From positions 434,001-498,000 of the forward strand of contig NZ_ALJF01000013.1 of assembly GCF_000300855.1 (NCBI RefSeq): a stretch of DNA of 64,000 nucleotides, written 5' to 3'. This document shows positions 35,215 to 49,143 of this stretch, piece after piece. Position numbers and translations under genes: made by a program. The number at the start of each line of letters is the position of its first letter. Positions within the stretch are counted from its first letter, which is position 1. This DNA is from Agrobacterium albertimagni AOL15. Lineage in GTDB: Bacteria > Pseudomonadota > Alphaproteobacteria > Rhizobiales > Rhizobiaceae. The notes under the pieces are model-generated. The model saw nothing but the letters and a program-made list of their open reading frames with translations, did not search any database and had not been told where the DNA came from.

Positions 35215-36522
35215 ATGGCGACGACGGCCGTTGGCAACGAGACGGTGGACACGGACAAGGCCGCAACTGCGCGCGCCTTTTCCGGCTTTGAACGCATGGT
35301 GGCCTGGCGCTATCTGCGTGCCCGGCGCAAGGAAGCCTTCATTTCCGTCATTGCCGGCTTCTCCTTCATCGGCATCATGCTTGGCGTGGCGACGCTGATC
35401 ATTGTCATGGCCGTGATGAACGGCTTCCGCACCGAGCTCGTCTCGCGCATTCTCGGCATCAACGGCCACATGATCGTTCAGGCTGTCGACCAGCCGCTGA
35501 GCGACTATGCTGGATTGGCCGAGCGGTTCGCAGCGGTTCCGGGCGTCACCATGGCACTGCCGCTGGTCGAAGGGCAGACGCTGGCTTCGGGACGTGAGGG
35601 TGCCGGCACAGGCGCCCTGGTACGCGGCATCCGCCCCGATGATCTGACGAAGCTGTCGGTCGTTTCATCCAACATCCGCTCCGGCGATCTGGTTGGTTTT
35701 GCCACCGGGGAGGGTGTTCTCATTGGCTCGCGCATGGCAGCCCAGCTGGGGCTTTCAGCGGGAGATACAATCACCCTGGTCTCTCCCGAAGGCGACGTGA
35801 CTCCGCTCGGCGTCAATCCGCGGGTGAAGTCCTATCCGGTCTCGGCCATCTTCGAAATCGGCATGTCTGAATATGATGCCTCGATCATCTATATGCCGCT
35901 CGAGGAATCGCAGATCTATTTCAATGTCGAAGGCATCGTTCAGTCGATCGAGCTCTTCATCTCCAATCCGGATGCCGTGGACGAGCTGCGTCCATTGATC
36001 GAGGAGGCCGCCGGCCGCCAGATCTTCCTCACCGACTGGCGCCAGCGCAACCAGACCTTCTTCTCGGCCCTTCAGGTCGAGCGGAACGTCATGTTCATGA
36101 TCCTGACGCTGATCGTGCTTGTCGCGGCGCTGAACATCATTTCCGGTCTGATCATGCTGGTGAAGGATAAGGCGAGCGATATCGCAATCCTCCGCACCAT
36201 GGGCGCGACATCCGGTGCCATCATGCGCATCTTCTTCATGACGGGTGCCGCGATCGGCACGGCAGGAACTCTGGCAGGTGTCGTGCTCGGCGTGATCGTC
36301 TGTCTGAACATCGAAAGCATCCGCCAGTTCTTCTCCTGGGTCTCCGGAACGATGCTCTTCGACCCCGAACTCTATTTCCTGAGCCAGCTGCCCGCGGACA
36401 TGAACGCCAGTGAGACCATCTCGGTTATCATCATGGCGCTCAGCCTGTCCTTCATGGCCACCATCTTCCCGGCCTGGCGGGCCTCGCGCCTGGATCCCGT
36501 CCAGGCTCTGCGTTACGAATGA
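35215..36522 (+). CDS. lolC: Lipoprotein-releasing ABC transporter permease (LolC/LolE family)
   Basis: A 435-residue inner membrane permease that, with LolD, extracts lipoproteins for transfer to LolA. TM1 lies at residues 40-65 after the conserved [29 protein letters not shown] large periplasmic MacB-like domain follows (residues 70-270). Three FtsX helices end the protein (residues 290-425), with [21 protein letters not shown] between them. AAGGAGA at 35203 sets the ATG at 35215. Many alphaproteobacteria have a single LolC/E-type protein working as a homodimer, so naming it C or E is arbitrary. Confidence 0.93.
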
Positions 36523-37226
36523 GGATGCCGAAATCAATGGCAAAAGACGTGGTTCTCTCGCTTGCCGGCATCGATCGCCATTATGGCCAGGGCGAAACCG
36601 TACTCTCGATCCTGAAAGGCGCGGACTTCACCTTGCGCACGGGTGAGACCGTGGCGCTGGTCGCCCCGTCGGGTACGGGCAAGTCGACGCTTCTGCATGT
36701 TGCCGGACTTCTGGAGCATCCCGACGGCGGCGAAGTGACCGTTGGCGGCGTTGCCTGTCAGGAACTGGGCGACGAGCAGCGCACGGCCATCCGCCGGAAG
36801 TCGATCGGCTTCGTCTACCAGTTCCATCATCTGCTGCCGGAATTCTCCGCGCTGGAAAACGTGATGATGCCGCAGCTGATCGCCGGGCTCACCAAGCCAG
36901 AGGCCGCCGAACGCGCCAAACAGCTTCTCGACTATATGCGTGTCGGTCATCGCGCCGATCACCGCCCGGCCGAACTTTCCGGCGGCGAACAGCAGCGCGT
37001 GGCAATTGCCCGCGCGGTCGCCAACGCTCCGCTGGTGCTTCTTGCCGACGAACCGACCGGCAACCTCGATCCCGAAACTGCAAGCTATGTCTTCTCGGCG
37101 CTCGAAGCGCTGGTCCGTCAGTCCGGTCTCTCGGCCATGATCGCGACCCACAACCACGACATTGCCCGCCGGATGGACCGCTGCGTCACCTTGGTCGACG
37201 GCAAGGTCGTCGAACTCGTCGTCTGA
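36519..37226 (+). CDS. lolD: Lipoprotein-releasing ABC transporter ATPase
   Basis: A 235-residue ABC ATPase energising lipoprotein release. It has Walker [10 protein letters not shown] near residue 51, a Q-loop in [18 protein letters not shown], signature [14 protein letters not shown] near residue 148, Walker [12 protein letters not shown] near residue 172, and the switch histidine in ATHNHD. The ATG at 36519 overlaps the permease stop (ATGA); ATGs at 36525 and 36537 are alternatives. An intrinsic terminator follows. Confidence 0.95.
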
Positions 37227-37266
37227 TCTCAGCCCGCTTTCTTCTCCTTTTTTCTGACGTCCCTGC

Positions 37267-37306
37267 GCCTCGGTGGAATTTGTTCCGCCGAGGCTGCGGT
37301 TTTTTT
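37267..37306 (+). terminator. Intrinsic terminator after lolD
   Basis: GCCTCGGTGGAA pairs with TTCCGCCGAGGC (12 pairs with one G-T wobble) around a short loop, followed by GCGG and seven T. It separates lolCD from the SOS-type promoter that begins a few bases further on. Confidence 0.85.
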
Positions 37307-37309
37307 AGG

Positions 37310-37338
37310 TTGACATTGGAACAAGAGCAGAACAAAAT
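37310..37338 (+). promoter_or_regulatory. SOS promoter: TTGACA -35 with LexA box
   Basis: TTGACA (37310-37315) is followed 17 bases later by a -10-like CAAAAT (37333-37338). Between and overlapping them is GAAC-N7-GAAC (37319-37333), in the fuller form GAACA-N5-AGAACA, which matches the alphaproteobacterial LexA box (GTTC-N7-GTTC on the other strand). LexA bound here would block RNA polymerase. The downstream genes are a 28-residue membrane peptide and then dnaE. Confidence 0.78.
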
Positions 37339-37366
37339 AAAAACATAAAGGGACAAGGAGACAGAA

Positions 37367-37453
37367 ATGACCGAAATTCTTCGTGACGTTGCTGCATTTG
37401 CCTCGATGGCGGTTTTCGTATCCAGCATGGCTTTGCTGATGATGGCGCTCTGA
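37367..37453 (+). CDS. 28-residue single-pass membrane peptide under LexA-type control
   Basis: The peptide begins MTEILRDVAAF and continues ASMAVFVSSMALLMMAL. A short charged N-terminus (E3, R6, D7) precedes one hydrophobic helix of about 20 residues reaching the C-terminus. AAGGAGA at 37355-37361 lies 5 bases before the ATG, an excellent ribosome binding site. The SOS promoter starts about 57 bases upstream. Caulobacter SidA is a 29-residue SOS-induced membrane peptide that blocks division; the analogy in size, topology and control is strong but I see no basis to claim homology. A leader peptide role for dnaE is another possibility. Confidence 0.7.
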   Translation: MTEILRDVAAFASMAVFVSSMALLMMAL

Positions 37454-37460
37454 CATTTTG

Positions 37461-37495
37461 GGGCGGCAAAGCTGGTGACCAAGGCCTTGCCGCCC
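37461..37495 (+). other. Hairpin between the SOS peptide gene and dnaE
   Basis: GGGCGGCAA (37461-37469) pairs perfectly with TTGCCGCCC (37487-37495) around a 17-base loop. The U-tract is poor (GACTTACTTCT), so it could act as a partial terminator allowing some read-through from the LexA-controlled promoter into dnaE. Confidence 0.5.
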
Positions 37496-37568
37496 GACTT
37501 ACTTCTGGACTTCGTGAGCCTGAAAGCCGAAAATCCCGACCGATTCAGAAATCAGGGAATGAAGCGGT

Positions 37569-40500
37569 ATGGGCGAGGACAGCGTCGACAGACAGGCGTC
37601 CGGTGGAGTGGGTGACGGTCCGGGTTTCGTGCATCTGCGCGTGCATTCGGCTTATTCGCTGCTTGAGGGCGCGCTGCCGCTGAAGAAGATCCTCGGCAAG
37701 GCTGTCGCCGACGACCAGCCGGCGATCGCGATCACCGACACCAACAATCTCTTCGTCGCGCTCGAGTTCTCGCAAAAGGCGCTCGGTGATGGCATCCAGC
37801 CGATCATCGGCTGCCAGCTGTCGATCGACATGGAGGATTCGACCGGCGAGAAGCGCGGCGGCAACGGTCATATGCCCGATCTGCCGGCCGTCGTCGTTCT
37901 GGCATCGGATGCGGAGGGCTATGAGCGCCTCGTTGATCTCGTCAGCCGGGCCTATCTCGGCGGCGACGCGGGTCAGCCGACCCATGTAAAGCTCTCCTGG
38001 CTCGAAGAGAGCGGGACCGAAGGCCTGATCCTGTTGACCGGCGCCGGTGGCGGGCCAGTCGATCGTATCCTGAAGGATGGTCACAAGGCCCAGGCCGAGA
38101 GCCGTCTGCTTGCCTTGAAGCGTCTGTTCGGCGATCGCCTCTATGTCGAATTGCAGCGGCATGGTGAGTATGATCGCACGCATGAGCGGCGCATGGTCCA
38201 GCTCGCCTATGAGCATGACCTGCCGCTGGTTGCGACCAACGAGGCCTTCTTCCCGGCCCGCGACGACTACGATGCCCATGATGCGCTGATGGCTGTGGCC
38301 CACAATGCCATCGTATCGAACGACGACCGCTTCCGCCTCACCCCTGACCATTATCTGAAGAGCCGGGCGGACATGATGAAGCTCTTCGCCGACCTGCCGG
38401 AGGCGCTCCAGAATTCCGTCGAGATCGCCCGCCGCTGCTCTTTCGTGCTTGATACCCGAAAGCCCATCCTGCCGCGCTTCACCGGTGGCAGCGACGATCC
38501 GGAGGAAGCCGAACGGGAAGAAGCACTCGAACTGCGCCGTCAGGCGGTGGAGGGTCTTGACCAGCGTCTGGCAGCCCTCGGCATGGCGCCGGGTTACGAG
38601 GAAAAGGAGTACCGCGACCGGCTGGAATTCGAGCTCTCGGTCATCGAACGCATGAAGTTCCCCGGCTACTTCCTGATCGTTTCGGACTTCATCAAATGGG
38701 CGAAGCAGCATGACATCCCGGTCGGCCCGGGCCGTGGTTCGGGTGCGGGCTCGCTCGTTGCCTATGCGCTGACCATTACCGACGTCGATCCCTTGCGTTT
38801 CTCGCTGCTCTTCGAACGCTTCCTCAATCCGGAACGCGTCTCGATGCCCGACTTCGACATCGACTTCTGCCAGGAGCGCCGCGAAGAGGTCATCCGCTAC
38901 GTGCAGCGCAAATATGGTCGCGAGCAGGTGGGCCAGATCATCACCTTCGGATCGCTACAGGCGCGTGCAGCGCTCCGCGACGTTGGCCGCGTGCTGGAAA
39001 TGCCCTATGGCCAGGTCGACAAGATCTGCAAGCTGGTCCCGAACAATCCGGCCAATCCGACGCCGCTCTCCAAGGCGATCGAGGAGGAGCCCAAGCTCCA
39101 GGAGGCCGCCGAAGAAGAGCCTGTCGTCGCGCGCCTGCTGGAGATCGCCCAGAAGATCGAGGGGCTCTACCGCCACGCCTCGACGCATGCCGCCGGTATC
39201 GTCATCGGTGACCGCCCGCTGTCTAAGCTTGTGCCGATGTATCGCGATCCACGCTCCGACATGCCGGTCACCCAGTTCAATATGAAATGGGTCGAACAGG
39301 CCGGCCTCGTGAAGTTCGACTTCCTCGGCCTGAAAACGCTGACGGTCCTGAAGACGGCCGTCGACTTCGTCGAGGAGCAGCGCGGTATCAAGGTCGACCT
39401 CGCCGCCATCCCGCTGGATGACACCTTGACCTACGAGATGCTCTCGCGCGGTGAAACGGTGGGCGTCTTCCAGGTGGAAAGTGCCGGCATGCGCAAGGCG
39501 CTGATCGGCATGCGCCCCGACTGCATCGAGGACATCATCGCGCTCGTGGCCCTTTATCGCCCGGGCCCGATGGAAAACATCCCCGTCTACAATGCCCGCA
39601 AGCATGGCGAGGAAGAGATCGCCTCGATCCATCCGAAGATCGACTACCTTTTGAAGGAAACCCAGGGCGTTATCGTCTACCAGGAACAGGTCATGCAGAT
39701 CGCGCAGGTCCTGTCTGGCTATTCGCTCGGCGAAGCCGACCTTCTGCGCCGCGCCATGGGTAAGAAGATCAAGGCGGAGATGGACCAGCAGTCGGTCCGT
39801 TTCGTTGATGGCGCAATGAAGAACGGTGTCTCGAAGCCGCAGGCGAACAACATCTTCGAACTGCTGGCCAAATTCGCCAACTACGGCTTCAACAAGTCAC
39901 ACGCAGCGGCCTACGCCATCGTCTCCTATCAGACGGCCTACATGAAGGCGCATTATCCGGTCGAGTTCCTCGCCGCATCGATGACGCTCGACATGTCGAA
40001 CACCGAAAAGCTCGTCGACTTCCGCCAGGATGCCGGCCGCCTCGGCATCCAAGTCGTGCCGCCTTCTGTCCAGACGTCCTACCGTCACTTCCAGACCGGT
40101 CCGAACCGCATCTATTACGCGCTGGCCGCCCTCAAGGGTGTCGGTGAAGGTGCCGTCGATCACATCGTCGAGGTGCGCGGCGACAAGCCCTTCGACAGCA
40201 TCGAGGATTTCTGCCTCAGGATCGACCCGAAGCAGATCAACCGACGTGTGTTCGAAAGCCTGATCGCCGCAGGCGCCTTCGACTGCTTCGGTCGCGACCG
40301 CGCCGAACTCGTCGGCAGCATCGATCGCATCATGGGCTATGCCCAGCGCGCCCAGGAAAATGCCGTCAGCGGTCAATCCGACATGTTCGGCACCGGCGGC
40401 GCAAGCGGCCCCGAGCGGATTGCCTTTGCACCTTATACGCCCTGGCTTTCCTCGGAAAAGCTGATGCGCGAATTCCAGGTGCTTGGCTTCTACCTCTCTG

Positions 40501-41069
40501 CCCACCCGCTCGACGCTTACAGAGACCTGCTCGACAAGCTGCGGGTCCAGAATTTCGCGGATTTCTCGGTGGCCGTGAAACAGGGCGCATCCGCCGGCCG
40601 TCTCGCCGGCACCGTCATCTCGCGCCAGGAGCGCAAGACCCGCACCGGCAACAAGATGGGCATCGTCACCTTTTCGGATGCCTCCGGCCAGTATGAAGCG
40701 GTTCTCTTCTCCGAAGGCCTGAACCAGTATCGCGACCTTCTGGAAGCGGGTAAATCGCTGGTCCTCACTGTACAGGCGGAGGAGCGGCCCGAGGGCATCG
40801 GATTGCGCATCCAGACGGCGCAGTCGCTCGAAGAACAGTCGATCCGCATGCAGAAGGCGATGCGCGTCTTCGTCCGGGATTCCGGTCCCTTGCGCGCCGT
40901 CGCTGCACATCTGAACGCAAGGGGCGACGGGCTCGTCTCCTTCATCGTGATCAAGGACGAAGGCCAGCGCGAAATCGAGGTGGAACTGACTGAACGCTTC
41001 CGCATCTCCCCCGAGATCGCTGCCGCCATGCGCTCGACCCCCGGCGTCCTCGACGTCGAACTGGTTTGA
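37569..41069 (+). CDS. dnaE: DNA polymerase III subunit alpha (replicative, DnaE1)
   Basis: A 1166-residue catalytic subunit of the replicative polymerase. The N-terminal PHP domain starts with HLRVHSAYSLLEGA near residue 22. The polymerase core has GPGRGSGAGSLVAYAL near residue 390 and the catalytic aspartates in MPDFDIDFCQERR near residue 430. Tandem helix-hairpin-helix and a C-terminal OB fold (GTVISRQERKTRTGNKMG near residue 1020) follow. The length and the full PHP domain separate it from the SOS mutagenesis polymerase DnaE2. It lies 115 bases downstream of the LexA-controlled peptide gene. No terminator is obvious after it. Confidence 0.96.
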   Translation: MGEDSVDRQASGGVGDGPGFVHLRVHSAYSLLEGALPLKKILGKAVADDQPAIAITDTNNLFVALEFSQKALGDGIQPIIGCQLSIDMEDSTGEKRGGNGHMPDLPAVVVLASDAEGYERLVDLVSRAYLGGDAGQPTHVKLSWLEESGTEGLILLTGAGGGPVDRILKDGHKAQAESRLLALKRLFGDRLYVELQRHGEYDRTHERRMVQLAYEHDLPLVATNEAFFPARDDYDAHDALMAVAHNAIVSNDDRFRLTPDHYLKSRADMMKLFADLPEALQNSVEIARRCSFVLDTRKPILPRFTGGSDDPEEAEREEALELRRQAVEGLDQRLAALGMAPGYEEKEYRDRLEFELSVIERMKFPGYFLIVSDFIKWAKQHDIPVGPGRGSGAGSLVAYALTITDVDPLRFSLLFERFLNPERVSMPDFDIDFCQERREEVIRYVQRKYGREQVGQIITFGSLQARAALRDVGRVLEMPYGQVDKICKLVPNNPANPTPLSKAIEEEPKLQEAAEEEPVVARLLEIAQKIEGLYRHASTHAAGIVIGDRPLSKLVPMYRDPRSDMPVTQFNMKWVEQAGLVKFDFLGLKTLTVLKTAVDFVEEQRGIKVDLAAIPLDDTLTYEMLSRGETVGVFQVESAGMRKALIGMRPDCIEDIIALVALYRPGPMENIPVYNARKHGEEEIASIHPKIDYLLKETQGVIVYQEQVMQIAQVLSGYSLGEADLLRRAMGKKIKAEMDQQSVRFVDGAMKNGVSKPQANNIFELLAKFANYGFNKSHAAAYAIVSYQTAYMKAHYPVEFLAASMTLDMSNTEKLVDFRQDAGRLGIQVVPPSVQTSYRHFQTGPNRIYYALAALKGVGEGAVDHIVEVRGDKPFDSIEDFCLRIDPKQINRRVFESLIAAGAFDCFGRDRAELVGSIDRIMGYAQRAQENAVSGQSDMFGTGGASGPERIAFAPYTPWLSSEKLMREFQVLGFYLSAHPLDAYRDLLDKLRVQNFADFSVAVKQGASAGRLAGTVISRQERKTRTGNKMGIVTFSDASGQYEAVLFSEGLNQYRDLLEAGKSLVLTVQAEERPEGIGLRIQTAQSLEEQSIRMQKAMRVFVRDSGPLRAVAAHLNARGDGLVSFIVIKDEGQREIEVELTERFRISPEIAAAMRSTPGVLDVELV

Positions 41070-44944: not shown

Positions 44945-46228
44945 CTATCGCTTTGACGGGAATGTATAACCCGTCTGAACCGTACCCTTGCCGAACTTGT
45001 CGCGCAATTTGTCCATGGCGGCCTCTGCCGCTGCCCGCCGTGCAGCCTGGACATCGACAAGGTCCGGCGGATCGGCAATCGCCGGATCCTGCAGATCGCT
45101 GACACCGATCCCGATCAGCCGGAAGCGCGTTCCATCCGCCTCCTTCTCCAGGAGCGACATGCCGGTGCGGAAGATCCGGTCGGCGAGCTGGGTGGGGTCG
45201 TCGAGCCGCCGGTTGCGTGTCCTGAGCTTGAAATCGGCCGTCTTCAGTTTCAGGACGACGGTCTGCCCGGCGATCTCGTGTCGTTTCAGCCGCCATGCGA
45301 CCTTTTCGGACAGGGCTCGCAGATGCACCACGAGATCGTCGAGCCGGTGAATGTCGTCGAAGAAGGTCGTTTCGGCAGAGACGCTTTTGGCCGGGTCGTT
45401 CGGGTGTACCGTACGCTCGTCAACTCCCCGGGACAGGCGCGCCAGACGCTGCCCCATCGAGCCGTAGCGGCGCATGAGATCGCTCTCGTCCTTCACCTGC
45501 AGCTGGCCGATGGTCCGGATGCCGTCGGCCTGTAGCGTCGTGGCAAAGGCCTTGCCGACACCCCAGATCATCGTCACAGGCTTGTCGGCGAGGAAGGTCA
45601 GAGCCTCGGCCTCACCGATGACAGAGAACCCGCGTGGCTTCTGCAGGTCGGAGGCGACCTTGGCGAGGAACTTGCAGTAGGAAAGGCCAACGGAAACGGT
45701 AATGCCGATCTCCTGCTCGATGCGTCGGGCAAGCCTCGCCAGCACCCGCGCCGGCGGATCGTGATGCAGCAGTTCGGTACCGCGCAAATCCAGAAAGGCC
45801 TCGTCGATCGAGATCGGCTGCACGAGCGGGGTCAGCTCCTCCATCATCGCCCGGATTTCGCGGCCGACGCGCGAATACTTCTCCATGTCGGGCTTGATGA
45901 CCACGGCCTGCGGACAGGCCTCCAGCGCCTTAAACATCGGCATGGCAGACCGCACCCCGTGAATGCGCGCCACGTAGCAGGCGGTCGAGACGACCCCGCG
46001 CTTGCCGCCGCCGATGATCACCGGCTTGTCGATCAGCTCCGGATTGTCGCGCTTCTCCACCGAGGCGTAGAAGGCATCACAATCGATATGGGCGATCGAC
46101 AGATCGTAGAGTTCGGAATGGTAGACGAGCCTCGGGCTGCCGCAGGAGCGGCAACGCCGCGCACCATCGGCCTGCCCGGTCAGGCAGTCACGACAAAAGC
46201 CGGAATGATCAGGAGCAGCGCGCGTCAT
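44945..46228 (-). CDS. dinB: DNA polymerase IV (Y family, DinB) with N-terminal CxxC pairs
   Basis: A 427-residue translesion polymerase. Catalytic acids are in [19 protein letters not shown] (near residue 47) and [10 protein letters not shown] (near residue 140). The helix-hairpin-helix thumb has [16 protein letters not shown], and the little-finger domain follows. An extra N-terminal segment contains C12-x2-C15 and C26-x2-C29, a probable zinc ribbon, which as I recall is common in rhizobial DinB. A LexA box lies 5 bases upstream of the ATG, consistent with SOS induction. Confidence 0.95.
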
Positions 46229-46233
46229 GGCCA

Positions 46234-46248
46234 GAACAAAGGTTGAAC
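46234..46248 (-). promoter_or_regulatory. LexA box upstream of dinB
   Basis: GAAC (46234-46237) and GAAC (46245-46248) are exactly 7 bases apart on the plus strand, i.e. GTTC-N7-GTTC reading toward dinB. The flanks fit GAACA-N5-TGAACA. The position, next to a known SOS gene, makes LexA control very likely. Being so near the ATG, it implies a very short leader. Confidence 0.8.
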
Positions 46249-46318
46249 AAGGCGACCATAGGCCGCCCTTTGAACGCAGGCAAGTGCGGCAATGCCGGGA
46301 AGGGGGCTCGCCGCCAGA

Positions 46319-47385: not shown

Positions 47386-47757
47386 ATGCCGAAAAAAGTG
47401 ATGATTGTCGAAGACAACGAGCTCAACATGAAGCTCTTCCGCGATCTGATCGAGGCATCCGGCTATGAGACAGTGCAGACCCGCAACGGCATGGAAGCCA
47501 TGGATCTCGCCCGGCGCCACCGCCCGGATCTGATCCTCATGGATATCCAGTTGCCCGAGGTCTCAGGGCTCGAAGTGACCAAATGGCTGAAGGACGATCC
47601 CGATCTCCACGTGATCCCGGTAATCGCTGTAACAGCTTTCGCCATGAAGGGCGACGAGGAACGAATCCGCCAGGGTGGCTGTGAAGCCTATGTCTCCAAA
47701 CCCATCTCGGTCCCCAAGTTTATTGAGACGATCAAGACCTATCTCGGAGATGCGTGA
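47386..47757 (+). CDS. divK: Single-domain cell-cycle response regulator DivK
   Basis: A 123-residue receiver domain without output. Acid pocket E9-D10, phosphoacceptor D53 ([10 protein letters not shown]), T83-like threonine in AVTAFAM, and K105-like lysine in [11 protein letters not shown]. DivK works in the PleC/DivJ phosphorelay controlling CtrA and asymmetric division in alphaproteobacteria. It is followed 12 bases later by pleD, as in Caulobacter and rhizobia, which secures the assignment. Confidence 0.95.
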
Positions 47758-47769
47758 GGACTGAAAGCC

Positions 47770-49143
47770 ATGACTGCGCGTATTCTGGTCGTCGACGATA
47801 TTCCTGCCAACGTGAAGCTGCTCGAAGCACGGCTGATAGCGGATTATTTCGACGTGCTGACGGCAAGCAATGGCCGCGACGCACTCGACATTTGCGATCG
47901 CACCCAGGTCGACGTCATTCTCCTCGACATCATGATGCCGGAAATGGACGGCTTCGAAGTCTGCGAAAGGCTGAAGTCCAACCCGCGTACGGCGCATATC
48001 CCGGTGGTCATGGTCACCGCCCTCGACCAGCCCTCCGATCGCGTCCGCGGTCTGCAGGCCGGGGCCGATGATTTCCTGACGAAGCCGGTCAACGACTTGC
48101 AGCTCATCTCGCGGGTAAAGAGCCTCGTGCGCTTGAAGACGCTGACGGACGAGCTGCGTATCCGCCATGACACCACCCGCGAGGCCGGCATCGGTGATAT
48201 CTTGAGGCTGCAGGAGGGCCGCCTCGAAGAGCAGGCGCAGGTTCTGCTCGTCGACAGCCGCGGTGCTTCCCAGGAACGCATCATCAAGGCGTTGAAGTCG
48301 ATTGCCGAAGTCAGCGCCATGTCCGATCCGCAGGCTGCGGTGTTCGAGGCGGCTGAAAACCCCTTCGACCTGGTCATCGTCAACAGCAATCTCGAGGACT
48401 ACGACCCCTTGCGTCTCTGCTCGCAGATCCGGTCGCTGGAGCGCACCCGCTTCATCCCGATCCTGCTGATCACCGAGCAGGGGGATGAGCAGATGATCAT
48501 CCGGGCGCTCGATCTCGGCGTGAACGACTACATTGTCCGACCGCTCGATCCGAATGAAATGATTGCGCGAACGCTGACCCAGGTCCGCCGCAAGCGCTAC
48601 AACGACCGCCTGCGCAACAGCGTCCGCCAGACGATCGAGCTTGCCGTCACCGACGGCCTGACGGGTCTCCACAATCGCCGCTATCTCGACACACATCTGC
48701 GCACCTTGTTTGCCCGTGCCAAGGTACGTGGCCGGCCGCTGACGCTATGCATCACCGACATCGACCGCTTCAAGCAGGTAAACGATGTCTACGGCCATGA
48801 TGCCGGCGACGAAGTGCTGAAGGAATTTGCTGGCCGCATTCGCTCCACCGTGCGCGGTGCCGATCTTGCCTGCCGGTTCGGTGGTGAGGAGTTCGTGGTC
48901 GTCATGCCGGATACGCCGGCGGAAGTCGCGGCAACGGTGGCCGAGCGGTTACGCGGTATGATCGAGGCACGTCCCTTCCAGCTTCGTTCTGGTGAGAGCC
49001 CGCTGATGCTGACGGCATCCATGGGCATCGCCACGATCGGCCCAGGCGTTGAAACGCCCGAGCAGCTTCTGAAGCAGGCCGACCGCGCCCTCTATGAAGC
49101 GAAGAACTCCGGTCGCAACCGCGTCGTCGCCGCTGCCGCGTGA
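47770..49143 (+). CDS. pleD: Diguanylate cyclase response regulator PleD
   Basis: A 457-residue protein with two receiver domains and a GGDEF domain. The first receiver has D9, D10 and phosphoacceptor D53 (ILLDIMMPE). The second (residues 155-280) is degenerate, with VIVNSNLEDYD in place of the acceptor aspartate motif, and serves as a dimerisation adaptor. The cyclase has GGEEF at residues 371-375 and an inhibitory I-site RGAD at 362-365, so feedback by c-di-GMP is expected. It couples cell-cycle signalling to pole development and motility. Confidence 0.96.
   Translation: MTARILVVDDIPANVKLLEARLIADYFDVLTASNGRDALDICDRTQVDVILLDIMMPEMDGFEVCERLKSNPRTAHIPVVMVTALDQPSDRVRGLQAGADDFLTKPVNDLQLISRVKSLVRLKTLTDELRIRHDTTREAGIGDILRLQEGRLEEQAQVLLVDSRGASQERIIKALKSIAEVSAMSDPQAAVFEAAENPFDLVIVNSNLEDYDPLRLCSQIRSLERTRFIPILLITEQGDEQMIIRALDLGVNDYIVRPLDPNEMIARTLTQVRRKRYNDRLRNSVRQTIELAVTDGLTGLHNRRYLDTHLRTLFARAKVRGRPLTLCITDIDRFKQVNDVYGHDAGDEVLKEFAGRIRSTVRGADLACRFGGEEFVVVMPDTPAEVAATVAERLRGMIEARPFQLRSGESPLMLTASMGIATIGPGVETPEQLLKQADRALYEAKNSGRNRVVAAAA

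Follow-up and report, generated by a model that had tools for sequence, protein, structure and literature searches.

What is the 28-codon frame that lies between a lolD-type gene and dnaE in Agrobacterium albertimagni AOL15, directly behind a putative LexA box? The stretch of DNA analysed here (64,000 nucleotides of contig NZ_ALJF01000013.1; referred to as the window) carries this frame at 37310-37453, promoter included. We considered this segment to be a free-standing SOS gene and the rhizobial ortholog of Caulobacter sidA, the product of which would be induced by damage, inserted in the membrane, and block septation probably via FtsW; a probability of roughly 0.8 was assigned to this reading.

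Layout of the locus and coding potential of the frame

The features of the locus, all on the plus strand, were as follows.

36519-37226 (+): LolD-type ABC ATPase, the upstream neighbour; best model TIGR02211 (LolD), below its curated cut-off, with an ABC_tran match
37267-37294 (+): stem of the intrinsic terminator of lolD (12 pairs, 8 of them G-C; loop of 4; T-rich tail), with the T run extending to 37306
37310-37315 (+): -35 element TTGACA, from sequence reading and a promoter scan
37319-37333 (+): LexA box GAACAAGAGCAGAAC, GAAC-N7-GAAC (GAACA-N6-GAACA-A), in agreement with GAACA-N6-GAACA-W (the Caulobacter consensus read on the opposite strand)
37333-37338 (+): -10-like CAAAAT, at a spacing of 17 and with a one-base overlap with the LexA box
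37341-37348 (+): possible third, degenerate half-site AAACATAA, 11 bp on from the box, of putative role
37355-37361 (+): ribosome-binding site AAGGAGA, five bases before the ATG
37367-37453 (+): putative sidA-type gene for a 28-aa single-helix membrane peptide, MTEILRDVAAFASMAVFVSSMALLMMAL (ATG at 37367, stop at 37451-37453)
37569-41069 (+): dnaE, DNA polymerase III alpha subunit (NF004226 above cut-off), the usual downstream neighbour

The elements of the initial annotation (TTGACA, a direct repeat in the promoter spacer, AAGGAGA five bases from an ATG, and a hydrophobic frame of 28 codons) were all recovered where it had placed them. A scan of 37150-37650 for sigma-70-like promoters returned a single one, at 37310-37338 (score 10 of 12; shuffle mean of 0.1), and the same region contained two terminator-like sites (shuffle mean of 0.7): the strong one of lolD and a weak one of 5 pairs within the peptide ORF. 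The lolD terminator insulates the peptide gene from lolD; with this strong terminator and a single sigma-70-like promoter, the gene seems to form a separate transcription unit at its 5' end. On the 3' side, 115 bp separate the peptide stop from the dnaE start. A hairpin without a T run was observed directly after the stop (37461-37495; GGGCGGCAAAG...CUUGCCGCCC) and may have an effect on read-through into dnaE; the 120-nt stretch with this hairpin, the spacer to dnaE, had no unusual folding stability (z of -0.97). The helix of the peptide was predicted from a mean KD value of 2.1 over residues 8-26 (19 residues), and when a conserved helix face was sought in the peptide, none was significant (fraction of 0.16). 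Near the dnaE region, the window also contains two cell-cycle genes: a divK-like response regulator gene (47386-47757, assigned by eye) and, following it, pleD (47770-49143), the product of which was 50% identical to Caulobacter PleD.

The coding potential was evaluated in the loci of relatives. A peptide of exactly 28 residues was encoded in all 80 named loci (the best 80 of 162 confirmed), every one of which also had TTGAC within 70 nt of the ATG (80/80). The best box was exact in 70 of them, with one mismatch in 8 and two mismatches in 2 (L101 and L103). Since these loci were retrieved by a peptide pattern, residue identity among them is biased, whereas length, box, and silent-site pattern are unbiased. 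They comprised 74 distinct coding sequences for 37 distinct peptides, among which the median pairwise dN/dS was 0.24 (772 pairs with a pS of 0.1-0.5). Entropies at the first, second, and third codon positions of the 74 sequences were 0.67, 0.12, and 1.24 bits, respectively: variability peaked at the third position, and the second was almost invariant. Mean pN divided by mean pS gave 0.33 in frame versus 1.02 and 5.8 in the other two frames, in which 100% and 97% of the sequences contained stops. Furthermore, conservation at the DNA level was confined, in several relatives of the genus, to two blocks, the dnaE coding sequence and an island made up of the promoter and ORF (approximately 37299-37454), with the spacer between them being unaligned. 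Judged by these patterns of variation, the 28-codon frame is a coding gene. Codon-level conservation had been proposed as a check together with the initial annotation, and a synonymous bias was indeed found (dN/dS and third-position variability); a broken frame beside a retained box, looked for in the 80 named loci, was absent, all of them keeping the 28 residues.

No model of Pfam or NCBIfam scored above the cut-off for the window peptide or the relatives scanned (two scans of 10 proteins each, with two sub-cut-off matches in one), and a plasmid search with the peptide gave no match. Rhizobium-type loci were also observed under other organism labels, namely, a Nostoc sp. CHAB 5824 record (L061) and an Arenimonas MAG (L084), probably owing to contamination or mislabelled bins.

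The LexA box and other SOS sites of the genome

The LexA consensus of Caulobacter is given as (T/A)TGTTC-N6-TGTTC (PMC13384398), and the box at 37319-37333 agreed with it at all specified bases. The pattern GAACANNNNNNGAACAW had 17 matches in the 5.09 Mb genome versus 0 for a reversed control. The genome contains lexA, with an exact GAAC-N7-GAAC at -60 of this gene, and further sites were located between ssb and uvrA (fragment) and beside DNA polymerase IV (dinB), a YifB/ComM-type ATPase, and vsr; these assigned neighbours cover part of the 17 sites, and ImuA-like and ParE-like ones were named by eye, without an NCBIfam match. By our own estimate, roughly 3% of 90-nt stretches would contain a box with one mismatch or fewer by chance. 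The LexA site proposed at the outset therefore held: the box is perfect and lies between the -35 and -10 elements, the pattern is specific (17 versus 0), and boxes are found at lexA, ssb/uvrA, and dinB. Putative LexA control of the peptide gene is supported by these sites.

The number of half-sites varied among relatives. Agrobacterium-type and related loci (L102, L104, L106, L108-L113, and L034-L037) had three GAAC half-sites at 11-bp spacing, forming two overlapping boxes, which suggests tighter repression in all of these loci. The third half-site was a full GAACAT in Agrobacterium-type relatives and was degenerate in the window, and in A. vitis/Allorhizobium-type loci the box was degenerate.

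A second perfect LexA box in the window (46234-46250; GAACAAAGGTTGAACAA) is located directly upstream of dinB (DNA polymerase IV; 44945-46228, minus strand). A different regulation is reported for dinB in C. crescentus (PMC1839093). Elsewhere in the same genome, perfect LexA-type sites were found beside a PIN-like ORF near ruvA (L150), a ParDE-like pair adjoining radA (L151), a winged-helix-like protein (L149), and the vsr endonuclease (L147), all but vsr being assigned by eye; they are possible further SOS genes.

Counterpart in Caulobacter and proposed mechanism

SidA of Caulobacter is described as a 29-aa, SOS-induced inner-membrane protein that binds FtsW, and its overproduction is suppressed by ftsW mutations (PMC4211646). 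The sidA promoter is reported to respond strongly to mitomycin C (PMC5189948); the locus tag of sidA is CCNA_02004 (PMC10769358), and dnaE of C. crescentus is CC1926 (PMC1839093). The PleD sequence of PDB chain 9g85 was used to identify the family that it marks, and then the genomes with a near-identical PleD: identity to 9g85 was 100% in genome G1057 and 99% in a second genome. The species of chain 9g85 was presumed to be C. crescentus, and CC1927 and CCNA_02004 were taken to be one gene. Directly upstream of dnaE in G1057 (locus L394), GAACATCTTGTGAAC, a LexA box, was followed by a ribosome-binding site and an ORF for a 29-residue hydrophobic peptide, which we infer very strongly to be SidA. 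All 79 Caulobacteraceae genomes contained dnaE, and 50 of the 79 loci were read. A motif search found the 29-aa-type peptide in 42 of these 50, each with a box (exact in 30, a single mismatch in 12), and missed it in 8, including L403 and L408, which do show the peptide. A PDB search with the Caulobacter peptide gave no match.

Sequences were compared using alignment A2 (60 of 74 peptides, with near-duplicates and 33-aa forms left out) and the Caulobacteraceae alignment A3 (35 of 37 peptides). The rhizobial and Caulobacteraceae profiles were matched by hhalign at 91.7%, with columns 1-19 free of gaps and an E of 8e-7, a pairwise value that is poorly calibrated on 28 columns. Summed profile similarity was 24.1 in register 0 and 2.2 in the best other register (-6 to +6), and the observed score was attained by 18 of 40,000 column permutations, or by 322 of 40,000 in the weaker comparison with the membrane columns alone shuffled. 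Positions common to both groups were R6, D/E7, A/S10, F/L11, S13, I/V14, F17, and V18. Because the locus, length, box, and hydrophobicity are common and the core is gap-free, the rhizobial peptide is very likely a SidA ortholog; 28 columns alone are no proof. The comparison with SidA made in the initial annotation was supported more strongly than had been claimed, since the positional counterpart in Caulobacter turned out to be a LexA-boxed 29-aa peptide with a gap-free alignment.

On the other hand, all 35 Caulobacteraceae rows have W19 in an FVW motif, whereas the Rhizobiaceae lack this tryptophan and mostly have F[V/I]A instead, and the alignment is poor over the C-terminal third; the partner contact of the rhizobial peptide may thus differ from that of Caulobacter. 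A SidA-family peptide of the same origin and under the same SOS control might even have acquired another membrane partner in the polar-growing Rhizobiaceae, such as a polar growth protein or another divisome protein. The loss of the FVW motif invariant in Caulobacteraceae, the poorly aligned C-terminal third, and the length of 28 rather than 29 aa are consistent with a changed target of this kind; however, the N-terminal two thirds, the length, and the box have been retained, FtsW is present in these bacteria, and we regard such a change as unlikely.

If the gene instead acts as sidA does, the following sequence of events may be proposed. In the undamaged cell, LexA would occupy the direct repeat between the -35 and -10 elements and close the promoter; upon DNA damage, RecA-stimulated cleavage of LexA would release it. 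The 28-aa peptide would be synthesised and inserted in the inner membrane, with an N-in topology that is probable because of Arg6, and there, as SidA does, would bind a component of the septal peptidoglycan machinery, FtsW being the most likely one. Division would be held until repair is complete. The coding gene, box, hydrophobic helix, synteny, and homology in this scheme come from sequence, and from them we infer LexA occupancy, induction, topology, the FtsW target, and the division block. Since the peptide gene sits behind a DNA-damage switch at the apparent SidA position, rhizobia very probably carry the same damage checkpoint as Caulobacter.

Distribution, relation to dnaE, and comparison with known systems

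With a narrow profile (A1), 149 of 297 genomes of the Rhizobiaceae (in the GTDB sense) matched at E <= 0.1, a figure reflecting either common loss or divergence, or a profile that is too narrow. Ninety family loci were read, including that of the window (30 and then 60 of the remaining listed matches, chosen roughly by E-value with near-duplicates skipped), and their peptide starts were assigned by a simple rule. dnaE was located downstream in 76 of the 90. The box in these 76 loci was exact in 65, had one mismatch in 10, and more in 1 (L214); the peptide was 28 aa long in 69. Among the 14 loci without dnaE, seven had a box with 0-1 mismatches and seven had none, and the latter may be chance profile matches. 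With a wider profile and E <= 0.01, matches were obtained in 53 of the 297 order-level genomes. Twenty-five order and class loci were read (24 from this search, and L220 from the class search and another order), with an exact box in 22, one mismatch in 3, and dnaE downstream in 17.

Only 6 of 389 genomes were matched by a class-wide profile search, two of them in the family; the four others were a box-bearing relative (L220), a match without an exact box (L221), and two matches inside 268-aa frames (L222 and L223). Since little was found outside the family by profile, the class was surveyed by position: the 700 bp before dnaE were scanned in 80 alphaproteobacterial genomes from families other than the Rhizobiaceae, hand-picked among the matches listed of 245 genomes (mostly larger genomes, some families contributing several). 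A pair of exact half-sites, in one orientation or the other, was present in 22 of the 80 loci (shuffled regions: 30 of 1600). GAAC-N7-GAAC followed by a ribosome-binding site and a hydrophobic small ORF was present in 18 loci from 10 families (shuffled: 1 of 1600), the mononucleotide shuffle being a rough control; these ORFs encoded 32-47 aa when the shorter start was used where two were given. Because 58 of the 80 loci had no exact half-site pair, the box-peptide-dnaE arrangement, as read from these upstream regions, is widespread in the class and far from universal.

A translated ORF in the 5'-UTR of dnaE1, sORF25, was reported by ribosome profiling of Sinorhizobium meliloti 2011 and suggested as a possible uORF of dnaE1 (PMC10117765). 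A pSymB-like stretch was of similar closeness to S. meliloti in two genera, g70 (85-86%) and g96 (84-85%), and the species probably belongs to g70, or else to g96. In g70, a Sinorhizobium-type genus, the peptide was present in 32 of 33 genomes (31/31 when completeness was 90% or more and contamination 5% or less), with an exact box and dnaE in all 30 loci read; both g96 loci read (L174 and L178) also had the box and dnaE. As the loci of both genera carry the peptide with dnaE and S. meliloti is probably in one of them, sORF25 is most likely the same gene, and translation of the peptide is probably already on record.

The suggestion made for sORF25 may be generalised: the peptide could be a leader peptide or upstream ORF, with its translation or the LexA promoter mainly controlling dnaE. 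In favour of this, dnaE follows the peptide in 76 of the 90 loci read in the family, in 17 of the 25 from the order and class, and in all 30 of the Sinorhizobium-type genus; the authors of sORF25 regarded it as a potential uORF (PMC10117765); SOS regulation was earlier assigned to dnaE itself in C. crescentus (PMC3323433); and read-through from the peptide promoter into dnaE is possible. However, the peptide and a box with 0-1 mismatches were found without dnaE within approximately 1.3 kb in seven of the 14 dnaE-less family loci, and the peptide and box without dnaE within approximately 1.5 kb in each of the eight g98 loci that were read. A convergent gene comes next at four of the loci read (gamma-glutamyltranspeptidase, LipB-type ligase, BenE, and GCV_T-type), which leaves the peptide without a gene to lead. 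A LexA switch that served only dnaE would be lost where dnaE is not the neighbour, and thus the box that stays with the peptide in 15 loci without a dnaE neighbour argues against a leader. In addition, the spacer to dnaE is unaligned where the gene aligns and shows no unusual fold (z of -0.97), and the residues themselves are conserved, beyond mere translation. A role as a dnaE leader therefore appears quite improbable.

An obligate position of the peptide in the dnaE 5'-UTR was ruled out by the same 15 loci, which have the peptide and box with dnaE elsewhere, four of them beside convergent genes. The g98 loci (L224-L229, L234, and L235) have the peptide and LexA boxes near lolD (found in 5 of the 8) and away from dnaE, a natural separation of the module; in L226, the next gene is a co-directional peptidase M50-type gene.

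A type I toxin-antitoxin system, with a SOS-induced toxin that, like TisB or DinQ, would depolarise the membrane and be restrained by an antisense RNA, is improbable: the LexA box, length below 30 aa, and one hydrophobic helix would fit, and DinQ is described as a SOS-regulated toxic single-helix peptide (PMC3567139), but no minus-strand promoter of the sigma-70-like type was found in 37150-37650, the synteny is conserved, unlike that of mobile toxin-antitoxin loci, and there is homology to the Caulobacter peptide.

Returning to the free-standing SidA ortholog, we tentatively extend this reading, with less than even confidence, to the class: the LexA box, micropeptide, and dnaE may represent an ancestral alphaproteobacterial checkpoint, in which a single damage-inducible promoter would drive a brake on septation and, through read-through into dnaE, raise the supply of replicative polymerase. 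The "LexA-regulated dnaE" of earlier work would then correspond to the sidA promoter, and the brake would have been freed from dnaE, with its box kept, in several Rhizobiaceae.

SidA and the translated ORF before dnaE1 of S. meliloti are already known (PMC10117765 for the latter). Our literature search (mostly title-level, with few subscription papers) found no report joining SidA with sORF25, none describing SidA in rhizobia, and no earlier tie between post-damage division arrest in rhizobia or their relatives and a SidA-type peptide; genes of this type are easily overlooked because of their small size. The present gene offers a short, testable candidate that is present in Rhizobium, Agrobacterium, and Sinorhizobium-type genomes, a candidate function for sORF25, and dozens of naturally occurring variants with which a small inhibitor directed at the septal machinery could be mapped. 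The LexA site credited to dnaE may be reassigned to the peptide gene, and the distribution suggests that SidA is an old alphaproteobacterial checkpoint.

Among known systems, SidA (CCNA_02004), taken as the 29-aa ORF described above, shares with the window peptide a LexA box, a one-helix peptide (29 versus 28 aa), a position directly upstream of dnaE, and an ungapped core, and differs in W19 and the C-terminal part; FtsW binding and the division block are features of SidA that would apply to the rhizobial peptide by extension. TisB is a SOS-regulated hydrophobic micropeptide. DinQ is another (PMC3567139), and both resemble the window peptide in this respect, but are gammaproteobacterial and controlled by antisense RNA. 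sORF25 is likewise a small ORF 5' of dnaE (in the dnaE1 5'-UTR), matched by position and not by sequence, and differs in the uORF role proposed by its authors (PMC10117765). DidA of C. crescentus is similar as a small damage-induced membrane division inhibitor; identity with DidA was rejected, as this protein has 71 aa and is described as SOS-independent (PMC4211646), whereas the window peptide has 28 aa and a LexA box. YneA, SosA, and ChiZ are also SOS-induced small membrane division inhibitors; they belong to other phyla, some with extra domains, and are likened here by function, not by homology. AlphaFold 3 models reported for YneA, SosA, ChiZ, and SidA place their helices at TM7 of FtsW, without high confidence (PMC13396833).
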